From contig NZ_JAUCBM010000010.1 of NCBI RefSeq assembly GCF_030362795.1, forward strand, positions 1 through 64,000: a DNA stretch of 64,000 nt, written 5' to 3'. Under the pieces are notes generated by a model. That model saw only the letters and a program-made list of their open reading frames with translations, had not been told where the DNA came from and did not search any database. Positions 262 to 33,790 of the stretch are shown here, in pieces. A program made the translations under genes and the position numbers. Position 1 is the stretch's first letter. Each line of letters opens with the position of its first letter. Source of the stretch: Pseudochrobactrum kiredjianiae. GTDB taxonomy: Bacteria; Pseudomonadota; Alphaproteobacteria; Rhizobiales; Rhizobiaceae.

Positions 262-1329
262 CTATCTGCGCGATGTAATCATCTCATTGAAATCCAAGCT
301 CTCTTTTTTGATGAGTGCTTGAAAATAGGCCCCTGGTGAGCTTAAACTAGATACTTTCTCTAAGACATAAGCAACGATTACAGATGTCCCTTCCCTGCCC
401 CATCTGATTACGGATTTTTCATAACTTGACTGAGAGATCCCAAGGAAACTCTTGATTTGAGATGCTGTATCGGCCAGATCTCTCCAGGTTTTTATTTTTG
501 AAAGCGCATATTCGCTAATATCCTTGAATCTGCATAAAACAGAATCCAAATCAATTTTACAAATAATATCTTCGTTTACCTTTGCGAATTTCTTTTTCTT
601 ATAATTATATGAATTAGATTCTATATGCTGCCGCTCATTTTGGCATTCATTGCCGCTCATTCCATCTGCCGCCACATTAGTTTCTAAGGTTTCTTGAATT
701 GATACTTTGATAGCCATCAACTCATTATAGATAGTTTCTAATTCGGCTTTTGTGGCTCTTCTACGTAGTTTCGAGACAGCTGCTTCATACATAGACGCAA
801 CCTCCCCTTGCCTCCCCTCTCTTTCAATATTTTTATAAATCTCCTGACGTAGAAGCGTTACATTTTCACGAGCTAGCTTTAGTTCCATAGAAGCCTCCTG
901 ATCGCCTTCAGCTGCTTTTCTGAACTCGTGTGCGCGTGTATATAAAAGTTCTAGAGAAAAGCCATATGCAGCTTCCTGAGAGCCTTTTCGTGCGTATCTC
1001 TTACGATTAGGGCTATCTTTACGTGAGATAATGCCAACATCAACCAGAGTTGCTAGATGACGGCGCAATGTGGACTCAGGCATCCCATGTGCACGAATAG
1101 ACAATTCTGAGTTTGATGGAAAGACAATCAGATTCTGGGACGATAATTCTTTTGCTGGATAAAACGACAAAAGGGCATGCAGTACCGATAAATTACGGTC
1201 TGAGAGACCATATGCTTTTTTAGAGATGCATAGATCTCTGAAAATCATCCATTTGTTATAAGGTGATTTCTGGTTAACAGAAGTCGTTCGAACTCCTTGT
1301 GAGTTCGTTGAGGATGTCAATGATGTCAT
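262..1329 (-). CDS. repC: Plasmid replication initiator RepC
   Basis: RepC is the initiator of repABC replicons and binds the origin, which in this family lies inside the repC gene. The 355-residue protein has the RepC-type N-terminal winged-helix region (roughly residues 20-120, with a KAYGLSDRNLSVLHAL segment and the helix around ESTLRRHLATL). It is somewhat shorter than the usual 400 or so residues. The ATG at 1329 is preceded by a GGAG ribosome site. It is the last gene of repA-repB-repC, separated from repB by about 150 bases that hold an antisense RNA gene, the standard arrangement. Copy number is expected to be set by that RNA. Confidence 0.93.
   Translation of the reverse strand: MTSLTSSTNSQGVRTTSVNQKSPYNKWMIFRDLCISKKAYGLSDRNLSVLHALLSFYPAKELSSQNLIVFPSNSELSIRAHGMPESTLRRHLATLVDVGIISRKDSPNRKRYARKGSQEAAYGFSLELLYTRAHEFRKAAEGDQEASMELKLARENVTLLRQEIYKNIEREGRQGEVASMYEAAVSKLRRRATKAELETIYNELMAIKVSIQETLETNVAADGMSGNECQNERQHIESNSYNYKKKKFAKVNEDIICKIDLDSVLCRFKDISEYALSKIKTWRDLADTASQIKSFLGISQSSYEKSVIRWGREGTSVIVAYVLEKVSSLSSPGAYFQALIKKESLDFNEMITSRR
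575..640. other. AT-rich tract in repC, candidate oriV
   Basis: This part of repC is markedly AT-rich (around 585-630), unlike the rest of the gene. In characterised repABC plasmids the replication origin lies in an AT-rich stretch in the middle of repC. The assignment rests on position and composition only; no iterons were seen. Confidence 0.3.
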
Positions 1330-1390
1330 TTTTTACTCCAAAATTAGGGTAAAAAAGGCCGTTCTCTCAAAAGATATGAGAGTTCCAATA

Positions 1391-1419
1391 TTGACATCAA
1401 GAAATGAAAATGCGATTCT
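1391..1419 (+). promoter_or_regulatory. Promoter of the antisense ctRNA
   Basis: A perfect -35 TTGACA (1391-1396) is followed after 17 bases by GATTCT (1414-1419). It reads on the plus strand, opposite to repABC, and sits just upstream of a strand-specific terminator hairpin. Confidence 0.75.
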
Positions 1420-1425
1420 ACAAGT

Positions 1426-1478
1426 GCTTAAGTTATAGAAGAAGGTTTCATGACGTGATGTTGTGGGGCCTTTTTTCT
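1426..1478 (+). ncRNA. Counter-transcribed RNA (incA/ctRNA) of the repABC cassette
   Basis: repABC plasmids encode a small RNA of about 50 nt between repB and repC. It pairs with the repC leader and limits RepC synthesis, so it sets incompatibility and copy number. Here the predicted RNA starts near 1426, about 7 bases after the -10 GATTCT, and ends in a 13-bp hairpin plus a T-run near 1478. It is antisense to the repB-repC intergenic mRNA. The exact 5' end is an inference from the promoter. Confidence 0.8.
1442..1478 (+). terminator. Intrinsic terminator of ctRNA, strand-specific
   Basis: The arms 1442-1454 and 1460-1472 pair over 13 positions around a 5-base loop, followed by six Ts interrupted by C. 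Several pairs are G-U in the plus-strand RNA and would be A-C mismatches in the opposite transcript. The hairpin is therefore stable in the ctRNA and weak in the repC mRNA, so it can stop one and not the other. Confidence 0.8.
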
Positions 1479-1485
1479 TTTCTAG

Positions 1486-2481
1486 TTACTCTCCATTTTG
1501 TTTGAATTGTGCGTACAACTCTTCCAATTTGCTTGATACATAATCGCCGAAATCCTTACTCTTTTGATCGAATTTCATAGTAAGAATCTTTGAATCTTTT
1601 GTCGTTTCTACAGACAATTTATCATCCCCATCGGTATGAGCCCATAGCAATCTTACCGCTACTTTTTTAGGCCTTTTTGAAGGCTTGGATAACTTTTTGA
1701 TCTGAGTGTGTAGATAGATAAAATTGTCATCTGCATCATCGAATTCATTCGAGGCGACTACCATTAGAGCAATTTCATTGTTCTCTGGCTTTAGTAGTAG
1801 CTTTTTCAGATCTTCCCAACGATCTCGCCCTACTCTTTTGCAGCTACCTAATTTTTCTAAAATCTCATGTGGAATGGTCTCAACTACACTGATCATGCGT
1901 GAGAGAAGTGTGTCATCAACCGATAAAGATGATTTCACAATATCTTTTGACATTCCTGCGTTAAGTAGTCTTTGAGCAAACAAGGCTTTCTCAATGAATG
2001 AGAGGTTGCTTCGAGCAGTGTTTTCTTGTCCTTGTGTAACTACGTGTTCAATATCTTCCAGATTTTTGATGATAGCTCGAACTTTGATGCCTAAATCTCT
2101 AGTTGCCTGGGCGCGACGATGACCAAATACAATCATATAACGCCCCTGACCCGCTGGAGATGGTCTCACCAAAATCGGAACAGACTGACCATATTTGGAA
2201 ATAGCTTCTTTCAGTACTTCATAGTCATCTTGATCAGTGTCAGATCGATCTTTGATGAATGAACTATCCAATAAATCAGGATCTAAGGAAACAATCGCCT
2301 CGCCGTCATTCATGAGGATAGAAGCTTCGGCAAGATCATCTAGTGACTGTAGCATCGACTTAGATGCGCCACGCTTTGTGTATTCAGAGCGGATGCCGTT
2401 TGGTGTCTGAGCGACTTTCTCTAACTCATTAGCTTCATTCAATGATGAAGTGATGTTTGCCAATAGATTTTTACGAGCCAT
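1486..2481 (-). CDS. repB: Plasmid partitioning protein RepB (ParB family)
   Basis: RepB binds the parS centromere and works with the RepA ATPase to segregate the plasmid. The 331-residue protein has the ParB/Spo0J N-terminal domain (about residues 65-160, with VPILVRPSP, GRYMIVFGHRR and the QGQENTARSNLSFIEKA segment) and then a helix-turn-helix region (residues about 165-210). It starts 67 bases after repA, and that gap contains a parS-like site. It is the second gene of the repABC operon. Confidence 0.93.
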   Translation of the reverse strand: MARKNLLANITSSLNEANELEKVAQTPNGIRSEYTKRGASKSMLQSLDDLAEASILMNDGEAIVSLDPDLLDSSFIKDRSDTDQDDYEVLKEAISKYGQSVPILVRPSPAGQGRYMIVFGHRRAQATRDLGIKVRAIIKNLEDIEHVVTQGQENTARSNLSFIEKALFAQRLLNAGMSKDIVKSSLSVDDTLLSRMISVVETIPHEILEKLGSCKRVGRDRWEDLKKLLLKPENNEIALMVVASNEFDDADDNFIYLHTQIKKLSKPSKRPKKVAVRLLWAHTDGDDKLSVETTKDSKILTMKFDQKSKDFGDYVSSKLEELYAQFKQNGE

Positions 2482-2524
2482 CAGAACGCTCCTAAATAAG
2501 TGTTTTTGTTGATGAAAATCACGA

Positions 2525-2541
2525 TTTGCACGGCTGTCAAA
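2525..2541. promoter_or_regulatory. parS-like centromere site 1 (repA-repB gap)
   Basis: The imperfect palindrome TTTGCACGGCTGTCAAA lies between repA and repB. It keeps the central C-n-GC-n-G core of the repABC parS consensus. The 15-base core TTGCACGGCTGTCAA recurs exactly at 3984-3998, upstream of repA. RepB is the expected ligand. Confidence 0.7.
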
Positions 2542-2548
2542 TTATTGG

Positions 2549-3748
2549 TCATTTGCGACCCCAAGCTTTATGAACAAGTTCCACAACTTCACCGTTTACA
2601 GCATTCAAACTTTCGAGAGCGCGATCATATGTGGCGCGTGTAAAATTGTTTCTCTCAACTTCATATAATGTCTGTTTTGTGATCCCTGCATCAGAGATTG
2701 CTGTCGATTTCAGCATCTGGTTTTTCAACATTCGTTTGTTGAACAGGGCTTGTAGAAAGCCTGTCATCTGCGCTTGCGGATTGTCCTGCGGCTCATAGCG
2801 AGTTACTAGATAGCGGAACCATTTCAATTTTACGGCGGCTCCAGCTTCTTTAATAGATTCCAGAATACCGCCAAGCATCAGCAAGAATTGGGACATGGAC
2901 ATCACGTCCAGCATCTGAGGGTGTACAGTGATCAAAACAGCTGTTGAGGCACTCAAGGACGTCAGCGTCAGGTAACCTAGCTGCGGTGGGCAATCGATGA
3001 TAACCACATCATATTTGTCGTCAACCTCTTTCAGAGCGTTAGTGATGCGTGTAAAAAAGAAGCGACCATCAGATGACTTCGAAGAGGCTGCTAACGGTGT
3101 GTCATACTCATATTCCTGCAGCTCCAAGTTTGCAGGAACAATGTCTAAACCTGGAAAATTGGTTGAGCGGATTAGTCCAGAGATTGGTTTTCTCTGATCG
3201 TCATACCTGAGAGCTTCATATAATGAAGGGTTCTGATCTAATTCTGGTTGAATGCCATGAAGAGCTGTCAATGATGCCTGAGGATCTAGGTCGATAGCTA
3301 AAACGCGATGTCCTGTTAGCGCCAGATACTGTGCCAGATGAGCTGCTGTTGTTGTCTTGCCAGAGCCGCCTTTAAAATTTACAACAGAAATAACTTGTAG
3401 GATTTCACCATTTTTTCTGTGCGGAACGTATTGTTGAGATCTGCCATTTTTATCGAGATACTCACGTAGTTCCAACATCTGCTGTGCCGAGTAAAACCTG
3501 CGACCAGAAGCCGTGACCTCAGGTGAGGGACCTTTACCATCCAGATGAAGCTTTTTGATATGGTTCTGAGTTACTCCAATGAAATCTGCAACTTCGTTGG
3601 ATGAAAAAAGACGCAAGCCCTTCTGGGCATTTGGTGGGTATTGCTCAGTACGAAGAAGATTTAGCTTATCGGAAATCAATTCCCCATTTTCGAGAATTTC
3701 TTTACTAAAATCGATTTCTTCAAGACTATCAAAAAGTGGCTTCATCAT
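2549..3748 (-). CDS. repA: Plasmid partitioning ATPase RepA (ParA family)
   Basis: RepA is the Walker-type ATPase of the repABC system. It moves RepB-parS complexes and represses its own operon. The 399-residue protein has an N-terminal helix-turn-helix (around residues 45-75, FSSNEVADFIGVTQNHIKKL), the deviant Walker A KGGSGKTT near residue 125 and the Walker B-like DVVIIDCPPQLG near residue 248. Two adjacent ATGs open the frame (MMKP), so the start is uncertain by one codon. It is the first gene of the operon; an inverted repeat and a second parS-like site lie upstream. Confidence 0.94.
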   Translation of the reverse strand: MMKPLFDSLEEIDFSKEILENGELISDKLNLLRTEQYPPNAQKGLRLFSSNEVADFIGVTQNHIKKLHLDGKGPSPEVTASGRRFYSAQQMLELREYLDKNGRSQQYVPHRKNGEILQVISVVNFKGGSGKTTTAAHLAQYLALTGHRVLAIDLDPQASLTALHGIQPELDQNPSLYEALRYDDQRKPISGLIRSTNFPGLDIVPANLELQEYEYDTPLAASSKSSDGRFFFTRITNALKEVDDKYDVVIIDCPPQLGYLTLTSLSASTAVLITVHPQMLDVMSMSQFLLMLGGILESIKEAGAAVKLKWFRYLVTRYEPQDNPQAQMTGFLQALFNKRMLKNQMLKSTAISDAGITKQTLYEVERNNFTRATYDRALESLNAVNGEVVELVHKAWGRK

Positions 3749-8487: not shown

Positions 8488-9615
8488 TTACAGCCCCGCA
8501 GCTTTTGTGAGATTGACGCGGAAACGATCGCGGTGGCGTTGATAGCGGCGTGTCATTTCGGCTGATGCGTGCCCGAGCTGTTTTTGCACATAACGCTCAT
8601 CGACATCGGCCGATGTTGCAAGACCGGCACGCAAGGAATGACCAGAAAACAAAGCCTCGCGCTCAGTCTCAGGCAAGCCACCGCGTAATCCGGCAGTGAG
8701 TGCTGTACGTTTGACCAGGCGGGCAATCTCTTTCGGGTTGAGGCGCTCTGACCCGACCGCTTTTCCTTGTCCGGTGACACGACGGAAGAGGGGGCCATGT
8801 GAAATGCGGGCAAAGTGCAGCCAGGTCTCTAAAGCAAGAATAGGGCAGGTGGCATCCGATGAGCCGCGACCGATTTCGACCTCACGCCAGCCCGTTTTAC
8901 CGCGTACAACCAACAGTAGCCCGTTATCAAACGTCTCCATCCAACCGGTACCGTCTTGTGTCTGATCGCGCGCCAGATCAAGACCCGTGATCTCAGAGCG
9001 TCGTAACCCACCGGCAAAACCGATCAGCAACATCGCCCGATCCCTTAAACCCCGCAGAGAACCGCGATCAAGGGTCTCGACCATAGCGATGATATCTTCG
9101 GCCATGACGGCTTCCTTCTGGACTGGCGGCCGAGCATGGCTATTGCGGATGCCGGCCATGACCGTCGCAATGTGGCGATCCTTTCGATCGAGTGTGAGGC
9201 CGCGTTGAGCATAGTTCCACGACAAAGAGGAAAGGCGACGCTCAATTGTCGACACAGAATTGGCCTTTATGCCCCGCTCAGCCGCACCCGACGCGCAAGC
9301 CGTGATGTAGAGGCCGACTGTTTGAGGATGCGGGGGGAGGGGAGTGAGGTTAGACCGTCGGCACCACGCAGAAAAGTGCTTCCAGTCAGCGGCATAGGCT
9401 TTGACTGTATTGACGGCGTTAGCCGCTTCGACGTAGCCGCGAGCCCGGTCGGTCAAATCTTTGAGATGCGTCAGCGACGGATGCGCATCAGCATGGGAAG
9501 GGCGCTGCCTGTCGTACGACACCTCAGAGGCTGAAACATCACACTCGGCCATCGTGCTGAGAGATGAGCTTTCGTCGTCGTGATTTTCGGTGTTTTGTTC
9601 GAAGTTTAGGGCCAT
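8488..9615 (-). CDS. Tyrosine recombinase / phage-type integrase
   Basis: It is a site-specific recombinase of 375 residues. The N-terminal SAM-like core-binding domain spans about residues 45-160 (VNTVKAYAADWKHFSAWC). The catalytic domain spans about 175-370, with Arg in GLRRSE, Lys in RGKTGW, the HSLR box, LGHAS and the nucleophilic Tyr in MTRRYQRH. All catalytic positions are present. It is divergent from a DUF1403-scpB pair, and a perfect inverted repeat lies only 16 bases upstream of its start. The same three families often occur together on alphaproteobacterial plasmids. A role in resolving multimers or integration is inferred. Confidence 0.92.
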   Translation of the reverse strand: MALNFEQNTENHDDESSSLSTMAECDVSASEVSYDRQRPSHADAHPSLTHLKDLTDRARGYVEAANAVNTVKAYAADWKHFSAWCRRSNLTPLPPHPQTVGLYITACASGAAERGIKANSVSTIERRLSSLSWNYAQRGLTLDRKDRHIATVMAGIRNSHARPPVQKEAVMAEDIIAMVETLDRGSLRGLRDRAMLLIGFAGGLRRSEITGLDLARDQTQDGTGWMETFDNGLLLVVRGKTGWREVEIGRGSSDATCPILALETWLHFARISHGPLFRRVTGQGKAVGSERLNPKEIARLVKRTALTAGLRGGLPETEREALFSGHSLRAGLATSADVDERYVQKQLGHASAEMTRRYQRHRDRFRVNLTKAAGL

Positions 9616-9630
9616 TTTTGCAGGATAACA

Positions 9631-9665
9631 AAAACGTCCGATAATGCAAGATTATCGGACGTTTT
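9631..9665. repeat. Perfect 15-bp inverted repeat, possible recombinase or operator site
   Basis: The arms AAAACGTCCGATAAT and its exact complement flank the 5-base spacer GCAAG. The repeat lies between the divergent recombinase and DUF1403 starts, so a terminator role is unlikely. The geometry of two inverted arms around a short spacer resembles core sites of tyrosine recombinases. It could equally be the operator of the divergent promoters. Confidence 0.7.
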
Positions 9666-9738
9666 ATTTACACGACAAGCGGTGCGGTTTGTGGCGATTA
9701 AACTAGTATAAAGCGCTCATATGTTCTAGAGTGACGCC

Positions 9739-10719
9739 ATGAAAAACCAACAGCAAATACACACCGCTGCGCTGGATGGTGGTTCCCCACGGCTACCGCC
9801 AGCCTATACGGTGCCAGCATGGGCGCGTCCTCAGGCGAGCGGTGACAGCCTTGAGAGCGCAGTGTTTTCGGCCGCTATTGCTATGAAATGTCTTGATGAT
9901 CTGGTGTGCTCAGATCCCGTCTGGCTTGGGTGTTGGCGTTCACACCAGGCGCTGTTGTGTGCCAATGCCACCTGCCAATGGTTACGATTGAAAGCCGATG
10001 AGCATAGTTTACGTGATGCCGTGCTGCTATGTGAACAAAGCGGAGATCCAGGGCCTGCCGGTCGTGTACTCCAGATTTACCAAAAACTGAGCCGTCGCAC
10101 ACCAGTACTGTCTTCGAAAACAGTCGCAACGCTCACGCAAGCCCTCGGCCTTCAACCACTATGCGATGCTGATCTTGCCAGCCTTGTCGAGGTCATGGAA
10201 ACCACCTTGCAAGGACGTCAACCACCACTTCTTGCGGCGGCCGCTCTCATCACGAGTTTCTTTCGCCTGCGCCCAGATGGTGAGATTTTGGGCTGGATAC
10301 TGGCTGACATAGTTTTGGCAGCGAAGCTCGGCTGGCGCGCGCCCGTGCCATTGTTGTTCCGTGCCCGTTTGGGTCCAGCCATGCGATTAAGCCAAGGCAA
10401 GGGGCAACTTAAACCCGACGATGCGGACTTTATCCGTGCTTTCTGTCTGGCTACTTGTGAGGCGAGCCAACAGGCGCTCAACAGCGCCACGACAATCGCA
10501 CGACGCGCTGAGACCTTGTTGGCGGTGGCGCCGAAATTGCGTAGCAAAGGAGCACAGACAATTATCAAGAAATTGCTGGAGGAGGATAGTATTTTAGCGA
10601 CAGCGCCTGACAGTGGGTTGTCGCGTTGGGCGGCGGCACGATTGTTTACGCGGCTCGAAGACTTTGGTGCTGTTCGCGAAGTGTCAGGCCGCTCCAGTTT
10701 TAAAATTTACGGGCTTTGA
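9739..10719 (+). CDS. DUF1403 family protein
   Basis: The 326-residue protein has no known biochemical function; I recognise it as DUF1403, found mainly on plasmids of Hyphomicrobiales and related groups. It is largely helical and rich in Leu and Ala, with no signal peptide or membrane segment. A conserved-looking run LRPDGEILGWILADIVLAAK lies near residue 180. The gene is followed directly by scpB (2-base gap) and is divergent from the tyrosine recombinase. The linkage to ScpB suggests a part in DNA organisation or plasmid segregation; that is an inference. Confidence 0.85.
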   Translation: MKNQQQIHTAALDGGSPRLPPAYTVPAWARPQASGDSLESAVFSAAIAMKCLDDLVCSDPVWLGCWRSHQALLCANATCQWLRLKADEHSLRDAVLLCEQSGDPGPAGRVLQIYQKLSRRTPVLSSKTVATLTQALGLQPLCDADLASLVEVMETTLQGRQPPLLAAAALITSFFRLRPDGEILGWILADIVLAAKLGWRAPVPLLFRARLGPAMRLSQGKGQLKPDDADFIRAFCLATCEASQQALNSATTIARRAETLLAVAPKLRSKGAQTIIKKLLEEDSILATAPDSGLSRWAAARLFTRLEDFGAVREVSGRSSFKIYGL

Positions 10720-10721
10720 TT

Positions 10722-11375
10722 ATGGCCAGAGAAAACAACAAACGAACTACACTCTATACTAAAGAACCAACAGCAACCCAGTTGCATATTGAGGGCGACC
10801 TGTTTGATCGCACTCTCGTAGATCTGCCACCAGAGCTGCGCTGGCGCGAATTCATGCGCCGCATTGAGGTGGTTTTGTTTGCAAGTTCAGAGCCGGTCAG
10901 CCGCGCATTTTTGGCACGTGTCATCGATAACGATTGCAGCATTGATTTGCTGGTCGAAGATCTGATCGAAGATTTACATGATCGGCCCTACACCGTGGTT
11001 GCGGTGGCTGGTGGCTGGCAAATGCGCACACGTCCGGCTTTTGGCGCTACCATTCGCGCAGCGCAGATGCCGGTGCGGTTTGCAGGCCCGAAACTGTCGG
11101 AGTTTGAGATGATGGTTCTGGTCACGATCGCCTATCAGCAACCGATCACTCGTAAAGCTCTGTCGACCTTGTTCGGCCGTGAGGTCAGTCGCGATCTGAT
11201 TGCCACTTTGCGTGAAGCCGCACTGATCGCAAGTGGCCCACGCAGTCCGAGCCCTGGTGCGCCATTGAGCCTGGTCACCACAACGCAATTCCTAGCAATG
11301 TTCGGGTTAAATTCACTGCGCGATCTGCCGGAGCAAGAAATGGTGGAGGAGGCGGGGTTCGTGCAAGGGGAATAG
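10722..11375 (+). CDS. scpB: Plasmid-borne ScpB (SMC-Scp complex subunit B)
   Basis: ScpB is the winged-helix kleisin partner in SMC-ScpAB chromosome condensation. The 217-residue protein has the two expected winged-helix regions. The first is around residues 45-120 (IEVVLFASSEPVSRAFLARVI and later YTVVAVAGGWQMRTRP). The second is around 125-200 (LSEFEMMVLVTIAYQQPITRKAL). The ATG at 10722 is preferred over a TTG at 10716 that overlaps the DUF1403 stop. No scpA or smc is in the window, so it must borrow chromosomal partners or act without them. Confidence 0.9.
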   Translation: MARENNKRTTLYTKEPTATQLHIEGDLFDRTLVDLPPELRWREFMRRIEVVLFASSEPVSRAFLARVIDNDCSIDLLVEDLIEDLHDRPYTVVAVAGGWQMRTRPAFGATIRAAQMPVRFAGPKLSEFEMMVLVTIAYQQPITRKALSTLFGREVSRDLIATLREAALIASGPRSPSPGAPLSLVTTTQFLAMFGLNSLRDLPEQEMVEEAGFVQGE

Positions 11376-11487
11376 GCGGGCAGACTGCTCTCAGGTACTT
11401 GGTCAAGTCATGACCAGAGAAGCCGCAGTCCTACCGGCAAACTCTTTTAAAACGGTTGAGCGGGTATTCACACGACAGCCTTGCATT

Positions 11488-11506
11488 TGTACCAATAATT
11501 GGTACA
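11488..11506. promoter_or_regulatory. Palindromic operator upstream of parD
   Basis: TGTACCAATAATTGGTACA is a perfect 9-base inverted repeat around a single A, 22 bases before the parD start. Ribbon-helix-helix antitoxins repress their own operons through such palindromes. The ribosome site AAAGGA follows it. Confidence 0.75.
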
Positions 11507-11528
11507 TTTGTAAGAAAGGAGTCATGCC

Positions 11529-11774
11529 ATGTCACGAAACACATCCTTCACGCTCGGTGATCATTTCGCTAGTTTCATTGATACACAGGTGAGGGGAGGC
11601 CGCTACGGCTCTGCCAGTGACGTCGTACGGGCAGGCTTGCGTTTACTGGAAGAACATGAGGCACGGGTAAAATCTTTACAAGATGCACTGATTGCGGGTG
11701 AAAACTCTGGCCTCCCTCGGACTCTGGATCGTGAAAACTTTCTGCGCACAATGAAAACAAAACATGCCCTTTGA
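11529..11774 (+). CDS. parD: ParD-type ribbon-helix-helix antitoxin
   Basis: The 81-residue protein starts SRNTSFTLGDHFASFIDTQV, with the ribbon-helix-helix fold and the RYGSASDVVRAGLRLLEE helices typical of ParD. The C-terminal tail would wrap the toxin. It is preceded by AAAGGA and a perfect palindromic operator. The cognate toxin starts at 11765, overlapping by ten bases, but is cut after about 29 codons by an IS3 element. The antitoxin is therefore an orphan here. Confidence 0.9.
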   Translation: MSRNTSFTLGDHFASFIDTQVRGGRYGSASDVVRAGLRLLEEHEARVKSLQDALIAGENSGLPRTLDRENFLRTMKTKHAL

Positions 11775-30966: not shown

Positions 30967-31108
30967 AGAGTATGAGAGAAATAACTCTTTTATCAAGACT
31001 TATTGAATACGGAAATTCTTAGGAATTATAATGCGTTACGTCTAGGAAATGCGATTTTTCATTGATGCAGGCGTCTAGAAATCTTGGTTACAGGTGCGGT
31101 ATGCGGCT

Positions 31109-33790
31109 ATGGCAACAGATAAGCTATCTTTGTACAGAAGTAAGCGTGACTTCAGCTTAACGACTGAACCGAAGAATTCAACGTTAAAAAACCGTTCAAA
31201 ACTAAGACGTTTCGTCATTCAGAAACACGACGCGACCCGACTTCACTATGATCTTCGACTTGAACTGGATGGCGTTTTCAAATCCTGGGCGGTCACAAAA
31301 GGGCCGTCACTTGATCCTCATGACAAGCGCTTTGCAGTCGAAGTTGAGGATCACCCGCTCGATTACGGCGACTTCGAAGGAATAATCCCAAAGAAGCAAT
31401 ATGGTGGTGGTACCGTTATGCTATGGGACCGGGGTTACTGGGAACCTGAAGGCATTAGAACACCTCAAGAAGCCCTTGAGAAGGGCGATCTTAAGTTCAC
31501 CCTTGAGGGTGACCACTTACATGGCAATTTCGTGCTGGTGCGCATGCGCCATGATCGCAATGGTAGTAACCGCATTAACTGGCTGCTGATCAAACAGGAA
31601 GATGAGTTCTCCGTGGCGGAGAATGGGGCAGGGGTCCTCGAGAAGTACTTTAAGTCGGTTGCATCTGGACGAACGATGGAGGCTATTGCGTCTGGCACAG
31701 GCAGAAAACCAAAGCCATTTATGACGAAGAGTGCCGGTGTCAAGGCAGATGCTGTCTGGGATAGCAGTCGTGGCTTAGCCCCTGAGGAGCGCAGGACCGA
31801 TGGAAGAGTTAAGCCTCCCCCTGAAAAGCGGGACGAAAAATTGGCTTCTGTTCGTCGTCAGATTGCGGGTAACGCATCAGTTATTCCTGCATTTATACCA
31901 CCGCAATTGTGCAAGACCTTGGCGCGGCCGCCATCTGCCCCTGGCTGGCTACATGAAATCAAGTTTGATGGCTATCGGGTGCAGATGCGTGTCGAAAACG
32001 GCACGGTTACCCTGAAGACGAGAAAAGGCCTCGATTGGACGATAAAGTTCCATGCCATCGAAAGAGCAGCATGCATGCTTCCCGATGCAATTATCGATGG
32101 AGAAATTTGCGCGCTTGATGACCACGGGACCCCGGACTTAGCGATCCTGCAGGCAGGTCTTTCAAAAGAGCAAACAGATGCCTTAGTATTTTTTGCCTTT
32201 GATATGCTGTTTGAAGGCGATGAGGACATACGCGAACTGCCGCTTTTTGAGCGCAAGCACAGGCTTGAGACGCTTTTATCAGATGCAGGTGAGACTACGC
32301 GTATTCGATTTGTTGAGCATTATGAAACCGGCGGAGATGCCGTTCTCAAATCCGCCTGCCGCTTGTCACTTGAGGGGATAGTTTCCAAAAAGGCCGATGC
32401 GCCCTATCGCTCAGGCAGGAGCCAGTCCTGGACGAAATCCAAATGCCGTGCCGGTCATGAGGTGGTAATTGGTGCTTACGCTAAAACCAATGGCAAGTTT
32501 CGGTCTTTGTTGGTAGGCGTCAATCGCGGTGGCCAATTCGTCTATGTTGGTCGTGTCGGCACGAGGTATAGTGCCAAAGTGGTGCAGGCCATTTTGCCGA
32601 AATTGCAAGCGCTGGAAACATCTAAGTCGCCGTTTACGGGCTTAGGTCCTCCAAAAAACCATGAGGATATCGTCTGGCTTGAGCCCGAATTGGTAGCCGA
32701 GATCGAATTCGCCGGATGGACAGGAGACGGTCAGATACGTCAGGCGTCATTCAAGGGCTTGCGCGAAGACAAACCTGCGAAGGAGGTTGAGGCGGAGACA
32801 CCAGCCGATCCTGAAGACACGGATGTGCTTGGACCGGAGAGGGCGAGACGCCAGCCCGCGCGTTCCGCCAAAGGCGGTAAGGCCAAGGTGATGGGGGTTT
32901 TGATTTCCCATCCCAACAAGCCTTTATGGCCCGATACTGAGGATTGCGAGGCGGTTAGCAAGGTTGAGCTTGCACGATATTACGAGACCATAGGCCCCTG
33001 GATGATAGAACATCTAAAGGGTAGGCCATGTTCGATCCTGCGGACACCCGATGGCATTGAGAGTGAACAATTTTTTCAGCGTCATGCCATGAAAGGCATT
33101 TCAAATCTCCTGGAACTTGTCACCATAAGCGGTGACCGCAAGCCCTATCTGCAGATCGACCGGATTGAGGGGCTCGCTGCTATCGCTCAGATCGGTGGTA
33201 CAGAGCTTCATCCGTGGAATTGCCACCCGGGCAAACCCGATAATCCAGGCCGTCTGGTCTTCGATCTGGACCCCGGTCCTGGTGTCGCGTTTGCAAATAT
33301 CGTTGCCGCGGCGCGAGAGATACGTGACCGGCTGGAGGAACTTGGTCTTTTGAGCTTTTGTAAGACCACCGGCGGTAAAGGCTTGCATGTGGTCACGCCG
33401 CTTGCCTGGTACAAAGGAAAGGGCGAAGGCTGGGATGCGGCAAAGATGTTTGCTCACGATATTTGTAAGCAGATGGCACGAGACAATCCAGACCTTTACT
33501 TGATCCAGATGGCGAAGAACCAACGCCAGGGCCGTATTTACCTCGATTATCTGCGAAATGACCGCATGGCGACAGCTGTTGCGCCGCTTTCACCACGCGG
33601 CCGCCCGGGCGCTCCCGTCTCCATGCCACTTAATTGGTCGCAGGTCACACCCGACCTCGATCCGAAACGTTTCACTATTCGCACCGTGCCAAGGCTTTTA
33701 TCAAACACAACTGCGTGGCAGGATTATAATCAGAGCCAACGGCCGCTTGCAGAGGCGATAAAACGGCTAGCCAATGTCAACTGCGCATGA
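31109..33790 (+). CDS. ligD: DNA ligase D, multifunctional NHEJ enzyme
   Basis: LigD seals double-strand breaks in bacterial non-homologous end joining. The domain order is phosphoesterase (about 20-190: [35 protein letters not shown]), ATP-dependent ligase (about 240-530, nucleotidyl Lys 285 in [10 protein letters not shown], then DGEICALDD) and polymerase/primase (about 590-880, catalytic DLDPG with TTGGKGLHV). At 893 residues this is the full-length PE-LIG-POL form. An ATG at 31109 is used; a GTG at 31094 is the alternative. It is convergent with two ku genes. Confidence 0.96.

Follow-up and report, generated by a model that had tools for sequence, protein, structure and literature searches.

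A candidate cer-like composite site beside recombinase, DUF1403 and scpB genes on repABC plasmids

We analysed a 64,000-nucleotide stretch of DNA from Pseudochrobactrum kiredjianiae (assembly GCF_030362795.1, contig NZ_JAUCBM010000010.1, positions 1 to 64,000; hereafter the window), in which a tyrosine recombinase gene is divergent from a DUF1403 gene and an scpB gene on a replicon of the repABC type. Between the divergent genes lies a composite site that joins a palindromic core of a known recombination type to a second conserved inverted repeat at a fixed distance (element 2); this second repeat, part of the same site, was overlooked in an earlier note on this DNA and is new here. Sequence comparison between plasmids establishes the two-part architecture, its conservation, its single-copy occurrence on each plasmid and the natural junctions found there. 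We lean towards reading it as a cer-like site for plasmid multimer resolution, with the Cre-like recombinase acting at the core and DUF1403 and ScpB, supplied in cis or in trans, at element 2.

A two-part site between divergent genes

The recombinase gene (Cre/Xer-like, 375 aa; 8488–9615, minus strand; Phage_integrase in Pfam, E = 3e-13) and the DUF1403 gene (326 aa; 9739–10719, plus strand; DUF1403 in Pfam, E = 4e-83) lie on either side of the repeat. Directly behind the latter lies scpB, of the ScpB family (10716–11375, plus strand; SMC_ScpB in Pfam, E = 1.5e-31), for which an ATG at 10722 is a more likely start than the listed TTG. Coordinates and profile matches agree with the earlier description of a complete recombinase divergent from DUF1403 and scpB, and the perfect 15-bp inverted repeat with a 5-base spacer, which had been placed 16 bases from the recombinase start, was located there at 9631–9645/9651–9665. 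Inside this 35-bp inverted repeat (9631–9665) we delimited a 29-bp core recombination site of 11-7-11 layout (ACGTCCGATAA TGCAAGA TTATCGGACGT; 9634–9662, without strand). Positions 9637–9659 read TCCGATAATGCAAGATTATCGGA, that is, the IntA-type arms TCCGATAA-N7-TTATCGGA. A 23-bp site with these arms has been proven experimentally for IntA of R. etli, according to excerpts of PMC4928290, and the earlier suggestion that the repeat is a recombinase target type is supported by the shared arms.

The core pattern TCCGATAA-N7-TTATCGGA matched the window once at up to two mismatches, against 0.01 matches expected. In the whole 4.46-Mb genome the window core was the sole match (no mismatches); a reversed control pattern matched twice at up to two mismatches, so that imperfect matches carry no weight at genome scale. 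When the regions upstream of DUF1403 were searched without bias for their best palindrome with 11-bp arms, 42 of 88 loci (a set that includes a few duplicates) reached 10–11 paired positions, as against none of 88 shuffles. The core accounted for 39 of these 42 strong palindromes, those of L046, L067 and L070 being other palindromes. The consensus of 52 distinct sites was AYGWMYGATAA-TGCAANM-TTATCRRTCRT. Six contigs of one Rhizobium altiplani assembly (L083–L088) carry modules with the same scores and a variant core, GGTAA-TGGAAGG-TTACC, and three of them adjoin rep genes that differ in their identity to those of the window.

Element 2 (9682–9718, without strand) consists of GTGCGGTT (9682–9689) and AAGCGCTC (9711–9718) separated by 21 bases, its centre lying 52 bp from that of the core. 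Its general form, GTGCGGTT-N20/21-AACCGCAC, was searched with 18–22 bases between the half-sites and freely over 120 bp, and a score of at least 12 of 16 was reached in 65 of 73 distinct upstream regions, versus 1.5% of shuffles; it was also found in 12 of 14 loci that have neither core nor recombinase. Where a core and an element 2 scoring at least 12 occur together, the centre-to-centre distance was 52.0 bp in 48 of 51 loci and 51.5 bp in the other three, a spacing that would correspond to about five helical turns. These 51 loci have, as does a cer-like site, a core together with a second repeat resembling a protein site at fixed spacing, and element 2 is a probable accessory-protein site. 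Given this repeat at its fixed spacing, the earlier idea that DUF1403 and ScpB bias the reaction is plausible.

In an ungapped alignment of 57 loci, a variable segment (about +18 to +25 from the core centre) is followed by GACA at +26, by the two half-sites and by a −10-like TA...T just before the ATG. The corresponding features of the window are a GACAAGC box between core and element 2 (9674–9680, plus strand; columns +26 to +32) and TAGAGT (9727–9732, plus strand; columns +79/+80/+84 conserved), a putative −10 box of DUF1403-scpB. The ATG of DUF1403 follows just past it, at 9739, and the DUF1403-scpB transcript is possibly leaderless. A scan of viral contigs with a composite variant one base shorter (18 N) gave one match.

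Distribution of the module and of the site

On repABC plasmids of the Rhizobiales and Rhodobacterales, recombinase, DUF1403 and scpB genes recur together as a module. A tblastn search of 72,556 plasmid records found relatives of DUF1403 in 692, of ScpB in 738 and of the recombinase in 1797, some of the latter two possibly lying outside the module. In all eight of a set of diverse annotated plasmids the genes for a tyrosine recombinase, DUF1403 and ScpB are clustered, frequently along with VapBC or ParDE genes, and seven have repC or repABC in the stretch read, the exception being pRtrCIAT899a. Among 80 named loci collected through DUF1403, scpB lay directly after DUF1403 in 74 of the 79 evaluated, and rep genes were present in 39 of the 63 with at least 9 kb upstream. 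Site and recombinase were strongly associated (47 loci with both, 10 with the site only, 3 with the recombinase only, 13 with neither; p = 4e-6), six of the 47 being like copies from one R. altiplani assembly. The repeat is conserved with the triad across plasmids, beside homologous recombinases, as the proposal in the earlier note requires. Among the site-only loci, recombinase fragments were seen in L069 and L077 and a short tblastn match in L082.

The site also occurs apart from DUF1403. Of 49 genomes or records, 40 contain the core pattern, at 70 places in total; the control pattern matched twice. Among 51 of these places that were fetched, from genomes that had been picked for carrying DUF1403, 49 have element 2 at the fixed offset (within one base) with a score of at least 11, for which the chance rate is 0.0014 per random position. 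DUF1403 was not found at 22 of the 51; two of these were set aside, L160 because a contig end truncates it and L166 because it retains a decayed DUF1403 start. Of the 20 clear cases, 19 keep element 2 at the same offset with a score of at least 12 (exception L133). On a complete Pararhizobium gei plasmid, neither DUF1403 nor scpB is annotated within 2.5 kb of the site.

A DUF1403 survey of the window's own class proved too sparse (3 of 387 at E = 0.001, two over the cut-off), and a later survey was therefore centred on the genome G417 (199 genomes). There, the exact composite pattern occurred in 29 genomes and DUF1403 in 70 (68 over the curated cut-off), with both in 28; DUF1403 was thus present in 28 of 29 composite-site genomes versus 42 of 170 others (p = 6e-14, or 2e-13 without G417). 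In five genomes all sites are solo sites, and DUF1403 is encoded elsewhere in four of these (p = 0.017); G417 and a few other genomes of this survey, including G443 and G454 of these four, were first reached via DUF1403.

Each of 20 complete plasmids carrying the module or the site has, as expected of a cer-like site, one composite position (20/20; relaxed pattern, three counted on both strands). The same relaxed pattern found none on p42a, the 21st complete plasmid searched.

Where the site lacks a tyrosine recombinase, a serine recombinase was considered as a general stand-in and rejected, being found in only 1 of 15 cases. At L184, L187 and L190 a serine recombinase gene of about 305 aa lies to the left of the composite, some 400 bp away, in the place that the tyrosine recombinase takes at other loci; at L184 and L187 it adjoins TniQ (2.5 kb covered on that side). 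TniA/TniB/TniQ genes were present at 10 of 56 site loci (L015, at 11.5–15 kb, L057, L066, L071, L072, L073, L074, L017, L026 and L091), and in six of the ten they begin 1755–1771 bp to the right of the composite, just after scpB. Tn5053/Tn402-type elements prefer resolution sites.

Signs of recombination at the site

Homology blocks (at least 200 bp, at least 78% identity) were compared between loci, 74 of 87 sites having enough flank; in the counts that follow, locus pairs are not independent. Left block ends fell at −8 to −17 from the core centre in 45 of 101 interior ends, and 14 of 21 right ends fell in the +50 bin, twelve blocks that end at +41 to +69 extending back past −200. Blocks therefore often start or stop at the edges of the composite.

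The 7-bp centre was common to 34 of 46 pairs of co-resident sites from 18 genomes, against 8.3 expected (p = 5e-5), and was shared in 8 of the 13 genomes that have two sites. The arms of co-resident sites were somewhat alike too, differing by a mean of 1.6 and 2.1 bases versus 2.4 and 2.6 expected. Strand exchange by tyrosine recombinases requires matching centres, and the co-resident sites are accordingly compatible.

The encoded proteins

All catalytic residues of the recombinase are present (R205, K240, H326, R329, H349 and Y358), each in at least 47 of 50 aligned sequences, and Cre (7rhz, E = 8e-5) was the sole solved structure to match it by sequence at E = 0.001.

For DUF1403, the AlphaFold (AF2) model (mean pLDDT 93.3) gave as best Foldseek matches in the PDB the Shewanella Fic proteins 3eqx and 3zcn (E = 2e-5, probability 1.00, TM 0.60–0.64, about 335 columns), and a Fic fold with a C-terminal winged helix is predicted. 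Compared with Fic enzymes such as SO_4266 (PDB 3eqx), the model is alike in fold and lacks the catalytic motif: HPFx(D/E)GNGR, invariant in the eight Fic proteins compared, is absent from a consensus of 65 DUF1403 sequences, which by eye has RPDAExLAW at the expected place. By sequence, a Pfam scan up to E = 1 detected no Fic in DUF1403, and no solved structure matched it better than E = 0.59; a search of a viral fold library gave no match at E = 0.001. Invariant arginines in the C-terminal part (R296, R301, R305, R313 and R318) would fit DNA binding by the winged helix, and on the model DUF1403 is a possible DNA-binding accessory protein. That it might be a disguised ScpA/kleisin was rejected on sequence (hhalign probability 0.3% against 18 ScpA). 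Two Rhodobacterales plasmids have genes annotated as Fic family immediately past the module, near the DUF1403 gene with its predicted Fic fold (L008, 7706–8809; L011, 9837–10955).

The window ScpB matches the ScpB profile and solved ScpB structures, and misses the NCBIfam ScpB equivalog cut-off (71.5 versus 89.2 bits). Likeness to the chromosomal SMC-ScpAB system ends at the partner gene, which on the plasmid is DUF1403, not scpA. In the window no scpA adjoins scpB, in agreement with the earlier note; the genome has one DUF1403 copy, and a second ScpB is encoded by an scpA-scpB pair on contig C5. Identity between the plasmid and the chromosomal ScpB is 30%, and the plasmid protein has an invariant RWRE stretch that its chromosomal counterpart lacks.

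Relation to known recombination systems

On the R. etli plasmid p42a, a core copy with one mismatch lies at 2595–2617, 108 bp from an integrase gene that we take to be IntA from its position beside the att site. The IntA/attA-attD system of p42a and p42d, as far as excerpts of PMC4928290 describe it, resembles ours in pairing a tyrosine recombinase with a palindromic TCCGATAA-N7-TTATCGGA core on a rhizobial plasmid, and IntA forms p42a-p42d cointegrates at this core type. It differs in that the p42a att site has no element 2, for which reason it was rejected as the same composite, and no DUF1403 or scpB match was found in the 50 kb of p42a covered. Since the IntA site, without element 2, fuses plasmids, an accessory element may be what turns an IntA-like fusing recombinase into a resolvase, to judge from these two systems.

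In ColE1 cer, according to excerpts of PMC2409434 and PMC5357621, a 30-bp core is accompanied by accessory sequences bound by PepA and ArgR, and recombination is limited to direct repeats on one molecule. The core of about 30 bp, its 11-bp arms and the accessory-protein site on one side are alike in the two systems, and the accessory pair of cer, an enzyme and a DNA-binding repressor, offers an analogy for DUF1403 and ScpB. In contrast, cer uses the host XerCD, whereas the plasmid here has its own recombinase; the accessory proteins differ; the Arg-box of cer is 98 bp from the XerC site, versus 52 bp between element 2 and the core centre; and topological selectivity is a proposal for the present system. 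P1 Cre/loxP and single-recombinase Xer modules such as XerS/difSL, in the same excerpts, likewise have a recombinase gene adjoining its own site, and differ from the present module in its fixed-spacing accessory repeat and in the module-less sites elsewhere in a genome. A recombinase gene termed Cre-like, together with toxin-antitoxin genes, is reported downstream of repABC on rhizobial plasmids in excerpts of PMC10194956. RinQ was rejected as the window recombinase because the same excerpts place it in the invertase/resolvase family.

Proposed mechanism and alternative explanations

We infer that recombination takes place at this site and that resolution is its purpose. The recombinase would bind the two 11-bp core arms and carry out strand exchange within the 7-bp centre, so converting multimeric plasmids to monomers as at ColE1 cer or P1 loxP with Cre. 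DUF1403, its partner ScpB or both would bind element 2, some five helical turns from the core, and build a synaptic complex acting as a topological gate, so that recombination occurs only between two sites on one molecule; they would also repress their own probable promoter, which holds the right half of element 2. The geometry, the single copy per plasmid and the natural junctions all fit the multimer-resolution type of site that the earlier note had proposed. As a tentative extension, resolution in multipartite genomes might act in trans throughout the cell: participating repABC replicons would share the composite site, only some would encode recombinase, DUF1403 and ScpB, and an enzymatically dead Fic protein with a captured SMC subunit would form a topological gate that permits identical crossovers without fusion.

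Several observations weigh against resolution by this module. A second cluster of left ends, 27 at bins −1150 and −1200, coincides with the end of the recombinase gene, and the homology breaks fit block exchange of the module, or insertions beside it, equally well. Three genomes account for 22 of the 34 pairs with a shared centre, and common ancestry may link the plasmids within a cell. Variation in the site arms follows DUF1403 about as closely as it follows the recombinase (partial Mantel 0.20 versus 0.21; 36 loci). The recombinase of the window shares just 29% identity with the p42a integrase over 300 aligned positions, and so is no close homologue of IntA. An HMM (hidden Markov model) search of the 10 site-only loci, each with 3 kb or more upstream, recovered no intact recombinase; at 14 DUF1403 loci both site and recombinase are lacking, and the exact composite pattern is missing in 42 of 70 DUF1403 genomes. 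Either the components can exist apart, then, or the pattern is too stringent. The relation of DUF1403 to Fic comes from a predicted structure, profile comparison giving a probability of 4%. A promoter region could likewise fix the spacing, although element 2 persists without DUF1403.

A rival idea is that core and element 2 are simply operators, bound by the recombinase and by DUF1403/ScpB to control their own genes. Both do lie between divergent genes, the −10-like box comes just downstream of the right half of element 2, and on the minus strand the consensus core centre reads TTGCA, which is −35 like. A recombinase −35 box was nevertheless rejected as the sole cause of the centre's asymmetry: of 32 loci in which no recombinase starts within 230 bp, some of which may have another divergent gene using the region, 31 retain GCAA, as do 27 of 27 such loci with more than 500 bp upstream, the five with less than 500 bp being ambiguous. 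Moreover, composite sites without DUF1403 keep the element 2 offset, the core is of a proven recombination type and homology breaks at the site, all of which makes pure regulation hardly probable.

Replicon fusion is another candidate purpose: as with IntA, the recombinase would join and separate co-resident plasmids for transfer or shuffling of non-conjugative replicons, with DUF1403/ScpB timing the reaction. The p42a-p42d cointegrates formed by IntA at the same core type, the centres common to sites of one genome and the flanks of related loci that change at the site would all suit such a role. Yet it is element 2, missing from the p42a att site as the composite is from p42a, that sets the present system apart, and a single site per plasmid, close to the replication genes, is how resolution sites are usually arranged; we regard fusion as the unlikely purpose. 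SMC loading, a form of the SMC recruitment suggested in the earlier note, in which ScpB (with DUF1403) at element 2 would recruit the chromosomal Smc-ScpA near repABC and align sister plasmids, leaving the recombinase to resolve the remaining links, would make use of a clear ScpB-family member and an available host ScpA, and is in keeping with one composite per plasmid and the frequent rep genes within the locus. It seems improbable to us, as DUF1403 is not ScpA-like by profile and the plasmid ScpB has diverged so far in sequence from the chromosomal one.

Neighbouring genes

The repC, repB and repA genes of the replicon's replication and partition operon occupy 262–3748 on the minus strand. 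Right behind scpB, at 11480–11680, the window has an inverted repeat and what by eye looks like the start of a ribbon-helix-helix antitoxin-like gene; toxin-antitoxin genes are common in the DUF1403/scpB module of other plasmids. A LigD-type multidomain DNA ligase is encoded at 31094–33790, on the same contig as repABC.

Significance

A literature search (subscription papers excluded) found no paper naming DUF1403, none joining repABC plasmids with ScpB or segregation and condensation protein, and none joining ScpB, plasmid, integrase and alphaproteobacteria. Among the matches listed for repABC dimer or multimer resolution, the excerpts, including those of PMC3794950, PMC13342612 and PMC12153318, held no description of the site.

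This analysis assigns DUF1403 a predicted fold, a DNA element and a role that can be tested, and it places an SMC-type subunit beside a site-specific recombinase. To our knowledge, little has been described of how large repABC replicons such as symbiosis plasmids and chromids are kept as separate monomers within a cell. Topological selectivity by accessory proteins is known mainly from PepA with ArgR or ArcA; if the proposal is true, DUF1403 and ScpB would be a new accessory-protein pair for such selectivity, and the module would provide a compact new recombination tool for rhizobia.

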